Below, piece after piece: positions 22,074-25,149 of a stretch of 64,000 bases of DNA. How positions within the stretch are numbered: position 1 is the stretch's first letter; each line of letters begins with the position of its first letter. The position numbers and the translations under genes are program-made. Below the pieces are notes generated by a model that had not been told where the DNA came from, searched no databases, and saw only the letters and a list, made by a program, of their open reading frames with translations. Location of the stretch: assembly GCA_943788725.1 (NCBI GenBank), contig CALSRJ010000001.1, forward strand, positions 310,001 through 374,000, written 5' to 3'. This DNA comes from an uncultured Flavobacteriales bacterium (GTDB lineage Bacteria; Bacteroidota; Bacteroidia; Flavobacteriales_G; Salibacteraceae).

Positions 22074-22081
22074 CAAATGTA
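22074..22081 (-). promoter_or_regulatory. -7 box TACATTTG of yceI
   Basis: A perfect TAnnTTTG element on the minus strand, 25 bases ahead of the yceI ATG. It is separated by a single base from the palindrome at 22083-22104. Confidence 0.6.
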
Positions 22082-22082
22082 T

Positions 22083-22104
22083 ATTATATGTACCTACATA
22101 TAAT
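22083..22104. promoter_or_regulatory. perfect 10-bp inverted repeat, candidate operator of yceI
   Basis: ATTATATGTA (22083-22092), two bases CC, then TACATATAAT (22095-22104): a perfect palindrome covering the spacer and -33 area of the yceI promoter. Position and symmetry fit a dimeric repressor such as MarR or TetR type. Just beyond it, ATTAGAC occurs twice, at 22106-22112 and 22123-22129, 17 bases apart. No regulator gene is adjacent. Confidence 0.6.
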
Positions 22105-22181
22105 GATTAGACGCATTTTTATATTAGACACACCCATTCGAGCATGTAAAACAGAATACTAACAGAAATTCTTAGGCATTT

Positions 22182-23762
22182 TTAAAGCTGAAAGGCCTTC
22201 AGCTGCGGGTCAAGAGGATTGAAAGAATCGATCAACCCAGAGAGGAATGCTGTGCGCGTCTCCTCATTGGTATACATCAACCAATGGTGAACACGCTCTT
22301 GCGGCACTGCATTCGGAAAGGTAGCTTCCAGAAACTCCGCCAGCCTGCGTGCAGATACATCGTGCCTGCGCTTATCGGCGCGTAGTACCTTCTTCTGAAG
22401 TACCTCCATCCGCTTCAAGATGCGCTTCTGTTCTGCCCTCGCACTCTCGCCAAGTGTAGCATCAAACAACGCGAGCTCTGCTGCTATTTGAGATAGCTGT
22501 TCTTTCAATACTTGTGCCTTATCGCCGACGATGTACTCGTGGCTTCCTTCCTTTCGGACGATGGCTTTAAGGATGGCCTCTCGATCACCGTATACATCCG
22601 AAGCAGAAAGATCCAATTGTTGCATCCGTTTCTGAGCTTTATCGTCTATCAAGACCGCCATATCTCGCAATACCAGACCTGGGAAAAAGACATCCACGGC
22701 ATCGAACACTCCTTTCAACTGCAGCCAGTAGCTCAATTCTCCTGGACCGCCAATGTATCCGAGATTCGGCAGTATGCATTCTTGATACAAAGGGCGCAAT
22801 GCGACATTCGGGCTGAAAGATTCAGGGCTGGACGCGCTGAGTTTGAAAAGCTCTTCGGAAGTCCAATGCTTTGTAGCATCCGCAGTAGCGAATCCCTTCT
22901 CCGATCTAACTATACGCTCTCTTACCCCCTCTTCCATCCAGAACAAGTTGATATCGCGCGGGGTAATTTGCCCTTGGTAGCCCGATTCATGAAGCATTGC
23001 CGTATTGGAAGCGACCGCATCAGAGGAAAACCCTTCGGTCAATTCTCTCTGCACTATCGGTGCGAAAATCGCTTTTAGCCGCGCGTCGGCCGCATCTATC
23101 ACCACGATACCCAAGGAGCCAAACATCCAATGCACGAGATCGCGCGTTGCCTCTGCCAGTGTCCTGTTCGGCGTGTAGATCTCCGCTAAGGTGTCGAGTG
23201 TAGCCAGTTTAAACGGGTCGTCCTTGAAAATTTCTCTCAACTCCGCTTGAAACGCCTCGACCCCTTGAAGAAGCATCGGTCCGACCGCTCCTCCAGAATC
23301 TCTGTTCCAGACTACTTTTTCCGATCCAATAAATATGTGATTCGCTTCTTCAAAATCGTGATCCTCCGAAGCCATCCAATAAACCGGAACTGTCTTGACT
23401 CCATTCTTTTCTAAATCCATCGCCAAACGAATGGCTGAAAGAATTTTGTATGGAAAGAACATCGGTCCGCCGTAAATGCACAATTGATGACCGGTAACTA
23501 CGGTATATACCTCCTCATGCGCGAGGCGTTGAATGTTCGTGCGGGTTTTAGGTGAGGTATAGTGGGAAGATTCCGCTTGCTCGGTCAAGACTTCGACCAA
23601 TATCCGCCTCTCTTCCTTTGGCAATTTCCTTGACTTCGCAGCTTCCATCAAGCCTTGGAGACTAGGAACAACAGAATAGAACGCATCAAGCGACGCATCG
23701 CCGGCGAGGTAGCGCTCTATAAGCCCTGGTAGTTTTGGTGGGATGTTTTTGGCCTTGTTCAA
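22182..23762 (-). CDS. bshC: bacillithiol biosynthesis cysteine-adding enzyme
   Basis: 526 residues from TTG 23762, which matches the usual length of about 530. A GTG at 23852 would add 30 residues and overlap rimO, but that extension does not look like the family N-terminus. Signatures are VVTGHQLCIYGGPMFFPYK (about residue 90 from the TTG), VPVYWMASEDHDFEEANH and LGYIGGPGELSYWLQLK. A coiled-coil stretch with many basic residues follows near the C-terminus. BshC joins cysteine to glucosaminyl-malate to give bacillithiol, the low-molecular-weight thiol of many Bacteroidota. Confidence 0.92.
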   Translation of the reverse strand: MNKAKNIPPKLPGLIERYLAGDASLDAFYSVVPSLQGLMEAAKSRKLPKEERRILVEVLTEQAESSHYTSPKTRTNIQRLAHEEVYTVVTGHQLCIYGGPMFFPYKILSAIRLAMDLEKNGVKTVPVYWMASEDHDFEEANHIFIGSEKVVWNRDSGGAVGPMLLQGVEAFQAELREIFKDDPFKLATLDTLAEIYTPNRTLAEATRDLVHWMFGSLGIVVIDAADARLKAIFAPIVQRELTEGFSSDAVASNTAMLHESGYQGQITPRDINLFWMEEGVRERIVRSEKGFATADATKHWTSEELFKLSASSPESFSPNVALRPLYQECILPNLGYIGGPGELSYWLQLKGVFDAVDVFFPGLVLRDMAVLIDDKAQKRMQQLDLSASDVYGDREAILKAIVRKEGSHEYIVGDKAQVLKEQLSQIAAELALFDATLGESARAEQKRILKRMEVLQKKVLRADKRRHDVSARRLAEFLEATFPNAVPQERVHHWLMYTNEETRTAFLSGLIDSFNPLDPQLKAFQL

Positions 23763-23832
23763 AATCGTCTGCAAAGTAAGACTGAAAGGACATAAGGGCC
23801 ATAAATGTTCACGAAGAACTGAGAATTCAGGA

Positions 23833-25149
23833 TCAAGCTTGCACCACTTCACCTTCTAAATCGAAGGCTGTATTACTAATGACCTTCACCGTCACAAAGT
23901 CACCGATGCGTACGTACTGATCCGTTGCATCGATTACGACTTCGTTGTCTACTTCGGGTGAATCGTACTGAGTTCTCCCTATGAAGTAGCCCGATTCTTT
24001 TCGGTCGATCAGTACGCGTTCCACGGTTCCTATTCTTGCCTTGTTCTTTTCGAAGCTGATGCTCTCTTGCAATTCCATGATCGCATTAGCGCGTTCTTGC
24101 TTTACTTCTTGTGGTACATCGTCCTCTAATTGAAAGGCGTGTGTATTCTCTTCATGGCTGTACGTAAAAACACCCAGTCGATCGAACTTCATCTTCGCGA
24201 CCCAGTCGTACATCTCTTGGAATTGCTCCTCTGTTTCACCTGGAAATCCAGTGATCAATGTCGTTCTGATGGCCATGTTGGGATTGACTGTGCGCATTTC
24301 GTTCAAAATCCGATCGGTCTTTGCCCTCGTCGTGCCTCGGCGCATGCCCTTGAGCATCTCGTCGTTGATGTGCTGCAGGGGAATGTCCAGGTAATTGCAA
24401 ATCTTTGGGTTCCTGGCCATTTCTTCGATGGCGTCCATTGGGAAACCTGCTGGGTAGGCATAATGCAACCGGATCCAATCGATTCCCTCTACTTCACTCA
24501 GTTTCTGCATCAACTCAGCGAGGTTTCGCTTTCCGTAGATATCCAGTCCGTAATAGGTTGAATCCTGTGCGATCAGGATCAATTCTTTCGTCCCTTGCGC
24601 AGCGAGAGATTTCGCTTGCTTCACCAATTCTTCGATCGGCGTGCTCTTATGCTTGCCACGCATCAGTGGAATCGCGCAAAAGGCGCAAGGTCGATCACAA
24701 CCTTCACTGATCTTTAAGTATGCATAGTGGACTGGCGTTGTCAAAAATCGCTCTCCCACCAATTCGTGCTTATAATCTGCTTTGAGCGTTTTGAGCAAGC
24801 GCGGGAGCTCACGTGTACCGAACCAGGCGTCCACTTCTGGAATTTCTAGTTCGAGCTGTTCGCGGTAGCGTTCTGAAAGGCAGCCTGTGACAAGCACCTT
24901 ATTGACCCACCCTTGCTTTTTGGCTTCGGAAAACTGAAGGATGGTGTTGACCGACTCTTCCTTGGCGTTATCAATGAACCCGCAAGTATTGATGATGACC
25001 GTGTCAAAGTCTTCCTTCTCACTTTCGTGCTCAACGCTGAAATCGTTTGCCTTCAGTTGGGCCATTAAAATCTCGGAGTCGAAGATGTTCTTAGAACAGC
25101 CGAGGGTTACAACGTTGATCTTTTCTGATCGTTTGCCTTTGGTGCGCAT
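23833..25149 (-). CDS. rimO: ribosomal protein S12 methylthiotransferase
   Basis: 438 residues from ATG 25149 (MRTKGKRSEKINVVTLGC), one base past the ftsY stop. The MTTase domain has three conserved Cys (LGCSKN, TCGFI, GCLSERY). The radical-SAM cluster is SEGCDRPCAFCAIPLMRGKH (about residue 155), and a C-terminal TRAM domain ends the protein. It adds a methylthio group to the conserved Asp of S12 using SAM and two Fe-S clusters. MiaB is excluded by the TRAM-side motifs and the ftsY context, where RimO is usual in Bacteroidota. Confidence 0.93.
   Translation of the reverse strand: MRTKGKRSEKINVVTLGCSKNIFDSEILMAQLKANDFSVEHESEKEDFDTVIINTCGFIDNAKEESVNTILQFSEAKKQGWVNKVLVTGCLSERYREQLELEIPEVDAWFGTRELPRLLKTLKADYKHELVGERFLTTPVHYAYLKISEGCDRPCAFCAIPLMRGKHKSTPIEELVKQAKSLAAQGTKELILIAQDSTYYGLDIYGKRNLAELMQKLSEVEGIDWIRLHYAYPAGFPMDAIEEMARNPKICNYLDIPLQHINDEMLKGMRRGTTRAKTDRILNEMRTVNPNMAIRTTLITGFPGETEEQFQEMYDWVAKMKFDRLGVFTYSHEENTHAFQLEDDVPQEVKQERANAIMELQESISFEKNKARIGTVERVLIDRKESGYFIGRTQYDSPEVDNEVVIDATDQYVRIGDFVTVKVISNTAFDLEGEVVQA

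Follow-up and report, generated by a model that had tools for sequence, protein, structure and literature searches.

The perfect palindrome ahead of yceI is very probably the operator of a single trans-acting, putatively autoregulated repressor of the MarR type, encoded on a contig other than the one holding the window (the whole stretch of 64,000 nucleotides that was analysed). From the sites described below we infer that a MarR dimer would occupy the core ATGTANNTACAT, which lies in the yceI promoter between −33 and −7, and would thereby block RNA polymerase, until an inducer releases the protein from the operator. The same MarR would bind the exact sites at a nitroreductase-GNAT-DoxX-pirin operon and at a gene for a DODA-type extradiol dioxygenase, and it would regulate its own gene through a weaker site in the promoter of that gene. 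The set of genes under its control, in our genome and in relatives, appears to be small and of a detoxification type.

Direct reading of the sequence confirmed the perfect 10-2-10 palindrome that the initial annotation had placed at the yceI promoter, with the arms ATTATATGTA (22083-22092) and TACATATAAT (22095-22104) on either side of a CC spacer (22093-22094). Nowhere else in the window do two 10-base arms form a perfect inverted repeat across a spacer of 0-8. When up to three mismatches were allowed, the full palindrome matched the window only at this site and matched none of 100 shuffles, and the whole genome (2.93 Mb, 7 contigs) likewise contains this single site. As had been proposed, the palindrome lies one base upstream of the −7-like box of yceI on the minus strand, TACATTTG (Table 1), which is of the TAnnTTTG type given as the −7 consensus in the accessible part of PMC9723704.

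The extended operator CATTATATGTAGGTACAT fits a third half-site, as in the archetype of the MarR promoters, TACATTAAATGTANNTACAT. In this archetype, TTTG-TACATTAAATGTATGTACA-TATATTTG, three half-sites fill the 19-nt spacer between the −33-like and −7-like boxes. An operator that fills the promoter spacer is the usual arrangement for steric repression in the MarR family, and since the yceI operator sits where the polymerase must bind, steric repression is the plain reading here. Inspection of the window by eye revealed no TTTG or TTG −33 element at 17-23 nt from the yceI −7 box, where the operator is found instead; this is what would be expected if the same MarR bound the site but activated the yceI promoter, rather than repressing it. 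We consider activation unlikely, because the site overlaps with the −33 to −7 region, to which the polymerase binds, and because the operator fills the TTTG-to-TATATTTG spacer in many MarR promoters (from the best 80 of 480 homologues).

The heptamer ATTAGAC does occur twice just beyond the palindrome (22106-22112 and 22123-22129), as had been noted, and it is present at eight places in the window, with both strands counted. We rejected this repeat as a part of the operator, because among the genus promoters read, the GTCTAA direct repeat recurs only in the sister species G008.

Table 1 Features of the yceI region (positions in the window)
Feature	Position	Strand	Basis
Full perfect 10-2-10 palindrome	22083..22104	.	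Direct reading, shuffles, window and genome scans
Predicted operator core ATGTA-NN-TACAT, two inverted half-sites	22088..22099	.	Conserved before yceI orthologues; one of three exact genome copies
Conserved extended operator (predicted) CATTATATGTAGGTACAT	22088..22105	-	Five-promoter genus alignment; MarR-promoter archetype
yceI promoter −7 box TACATTTG, TAnnTTTG type	22074..22081	-	Sequence; published consensus
ATTAGAC direct repeat, role doubtful	22106..22129	.	Sequence; repeat in sister species G008 only
yceI, YceI-domain lipoprotein-like protein, 217 aa	21395..22048	-	Pfam YceI domain
Intrinsic terminator of yceI, 9-bp stem, UUCG loop	21352..21373	-	Sequence

A regulator of the MarR or TetR type had been proposed to act from elsewhere, and the comparison of genomes pointed to the MarR family, since the promoter of a MarR gene contains the same site in many genomes. 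Among the relatives, the core precedes MarR-DoxX-YceI operons (G023, L075) and MarR-YceI operons (G017, L076), as well as second YceI genes (L077-L079, L090) and pirin genes (L080, L084). Twenty stretches of relatives with an exact core were chosen among the matches listed, favouring CC/GG spacers and nearness to YceI; the core stands before a gene in nine of them and inside a gene in 11, and the latter were set aside as chance. A DoxX-like open reading frame adjoining the site in G006 (L081) has no Pfam match, and is not claimed as DoxX.

A search with the MarR protein of G023 gave matches in 53 of 60 genomes. Our genome has a single orthologue of this site-bearing MarR (48% identical), and it lies on another contig, in agreement with a regulator acting from elsewhere (within C5:173671-174153, match at 173716-174153; L125 4672-5160). 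The product of 150 aa exceeds the cut-offs of PF01047 (33.5 bits vs 24.6) and PF12802 (29 vs 27), and reaches none of the NCBIfam equivalog cut-offs, the best being HpaR (45.5 of 121.2 bits). Its AlphaFold2 model (pLDDT 86.4) is a winged helix with long end helices and wing strands at residues 92-96 and 104-108, and the nearest PDB folds are MarR proteins, some of them DNA-bound. The gene is flanked by a UPF0093 (HemJ-like) gene and a sigma-70-type gene, and each of these neighbour types was found in 10 of 80 MarR loci (the best 80 of 480).

The best 80 of 480 confirmed MarR homologues from a contig scan provided a wider test set of 71 homologues outside the family-level group of our genome (L165-L235, with L156-L164 excluded), picked by MarR similarity and not by the site. 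Within 170 nt upstream of the MarR gene, 25 of these 71 distant loci have the exact core and 42 have it with no more than one mismatch, although the loci are related to each other and thus do not amount to 71 independent trials. In the same loci, 29 anagram palindromes gave means of 0.07 exact matches and 1.3 matches at one mismatch or fewer (largest, 9). Of the spacers of 0-8 tried on this set, again from the best 80 of 480, a spacer of 2 alone gave exact matches. Near the MarR gene, YceI was found in 37 (within about 3 kb), pirin in eight and nitroreductase in three of the best 80 of 480 loci; in L177, L180, L181, L187 and L202, a tandem pair of MarR-like genes precedes YceI. Cultivable relatives in which MarR-YceI comes with an exact site include Dyadobacter sp. 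SG02 and a Pontibacter.

The MarR promoter of our own genome contains a degenerate site, GTGTAAAAACAT, with two mismatches to the core. In the last 90 nt of the 13 genus MarR promoters, the core is exact in two, has at most one mismatch in four and at most two mismatches in 10, as compared with anagram means of 0.00, 0.07 and 1.17, respectively. The best core match has three mismatches in 3/13 promoters, and in some genus promoters the same half-sites are instead arranged as ACATTARRTGT. Our genome has four MarR-domain matches, three of them besides this orthologue, and inspection by eye places a TetR-like gene at a distance of a few kb from the nitroreductase operon; either could hint that some other regulator (another MarR-domain protein, or one of the TetR or Crp/Fnr type) binds the palindrome, with the MarR gene as just one of its targets. 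This is quite improbable, since among the best 80 of 480 homologues this MarR gene has the site in its promoter across distant phyla, and a family genome with no MarR match (G016) contains neither an exact core nor a site at yceI, which is a single co-absence.

In the suggested genome scan for further copies, the full palindrome proved unique, and its exact core, ATGTANNTACAT, occurs three times, at yceI, at the gene for the DODA-type dioxygenase (NF007914, 297.6 bits vs a cut-off of 233) and at the nitroreductase-GNAT-DoxX-pirin operon. With sites also at the latter two, the view of a regulator dedicated to yceI does not hold. The core is not enriched genome-wide (three exact copies vs six of a reversed control in our genome), nor is the exact core in excess over the control across the family as a whole, and therefore what counts as evidence is the location of the sites, and not their number. 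Nitroreductase orthologues are present in 10 of the 13 genus genomes, and all 10 retain the site, six of them exactly and the others with a single mismatch. Relatives of the dioxygenase are present in four of 13, one with an internal stop, and the site is kept in two of the three judgeable loci; the G009 locus, which starts at a contig end, was excluded from the upstream count. The nitroreductase copy of G011 (L240) has an in-frame TGA and the dioxygenase copy of G001 (L252) an in-frame TAG, each reflecting either a broken gene or a sequence error.

The looser pattern RTGTANNWACAY matches 14 places in our genome, including the promoter of the MarR orthologue. A given 170-nt stretch would match by chance with a probability of about 0.0008, but the pattern, drawn from the yceI sites, was defined after the MarR promoters had been read, so that the match in the MarR promoter is not a fully blind test. 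Most of the other places are inside genes, and one (L149) is intergenic. A loose-pattern site before an MFS transporter gene (PF07690) is kept in 4/11 loci, and this gene is probably a further target of the same MarR.

We compared the 130 nt before the yceI orthologues in 29 of 30 loci; L031 was dropped, as the frame picked was not YceI. Distances were counted from where the protein match starts; in a few distant loci this point lies some codons inside the gene. A lack of conservation had been named as a result that would speak against a repressor at the palindrome. The relaxed core pattern, RTGTANNWACAY on either strand, was found in 11/11 orthologues of the genus, 7/11 of the rest of the family and 2/7 beyond it, and was absent from the remaining four and five promoters of the latter two groups. 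The exact core was found in 5/11, 5/11 and 1/7, respectively, while none of the 29 anagram palindromes had an exact match in any of these promoter sets. In the genus, G001 and G012 have distant paralogues of yceI but no close orthologue. When five promoters of the genus were aligned, CATTAWATGTANNTACAT, with the core ATGTANNTACAT, emerged as the unit conserved across close relatives, with variable outer bases in the palindrome arm next to the −7 box. Although this variation in one arm and the lack of a genome-wide excess of the core would fit a palindrome that arose by chance in an AT-rich promoter and has no regulator, such an origin is next to negligible in view of the site kept by every genus orthologue, the 29 anagram controls and the genes of related function that share the core.

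The yceI product contains the Pfam YceI domain (84.3 bits vs a cut-off of 23.7), and the terminator with a UUCG loop attributed to the gene is indeed present (Table 1). The gene upstream of yceI is bshC, for bacillithiol synthesis (window 22182-23852); bacillithiol belongs to a thiol pathway used against electrophiles. By eye, a similar gene end precedes yceI in G008, and the other genus members have a different neighbour. The physiological role of the widespread YceI proteins is poorly understood. A named candidate regulator with a defined operator and few further targets offers a concrete handle on this role, and because the operator can be read in many genomes, the regulons of this MarR should be predictable across Bacteroidota.

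The only cysteine of the MarR orthologue, Cys97, directly follows the first wing strand. A cysteine is kept at this position in 74/80 homologues (the best 80 of 480), and is replaced by Ser or Asn in some, including those of the genus members G009 and G002; SlyA presumably has a cysteine at the same place. The sole wing cysteine, together with the target genes, suggests that the inducer is an electrophile or a quinone-like compound. A bolder version, which we regard as a tentative possibility and on balance doubtful, is that a previously undescribed, superphylum-wide, thiol-based MarR senses electrophiles or quinones through modification of the wing cysteine by the inducer, and controls YceI together with pirin, nitroreductase, DoxX and the DODA-type dioxygenase. 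If true, this would assign YceI to the defence against electrophiles or quinones, and would offer a direct test of its function. We found no paper describing this MarR/YceI regulon in the open-access collection that was searched, and the regulator is not described in the accessible portions of PMC4349456, PMC11304471 and PMC9723704.

The predicted regulon is of a familiar MarR type, with a well-defined predicted operator. As in MarR, SlyA, HpaR, MftR and MepR, the regulator has a Pfam MarR domain and a winged-helix fold, the predicted operator is short, two-fold and promoter-overlapping, many genomes have a site in the promoter of the regulator gene, and the probable targets include efflux and detoxification genes. 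Judged by sequence and conservation, the yceI site is two-fold symmetric and overlaps the promoter, as expected for the MarR type, whose operators are about 16-20 bp according to the accessible part of PMC6798810. The candidate differs from these five regulators in the core ATGTANNTACAT, in the YceI and pirin targets and in the MarR-YceI pairs of many genomes. The closest solved sequence is the planctomycete MarR of PDB 3u2r (E 5.6e-24), which has no known role and is also the second-best fold. As far as the accessible part of PMC6798810 describes them, the quinone-response regulons of MhqR and YodB/QsrR in Bacillus and Staphylococcus likewise combine a MarR-type or MarR/DUF24-type repressor with nitroreductase and ring-cleavage dioxygenase targets, which in our case are known as sites only. 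In the same account, the MhqR operator, TATCTCGAA-aTCGAaATA, differs from the core found here, and in contrast to QsrR/YodB, the present MarR lacks the N-terminal Cys5/6 and has its sole cysteine, Cys97, in the wing. Unlike the MhqR and YodB/QsrR regulons as presented there, the predicted targets here include YceI, pirin and DoxX.
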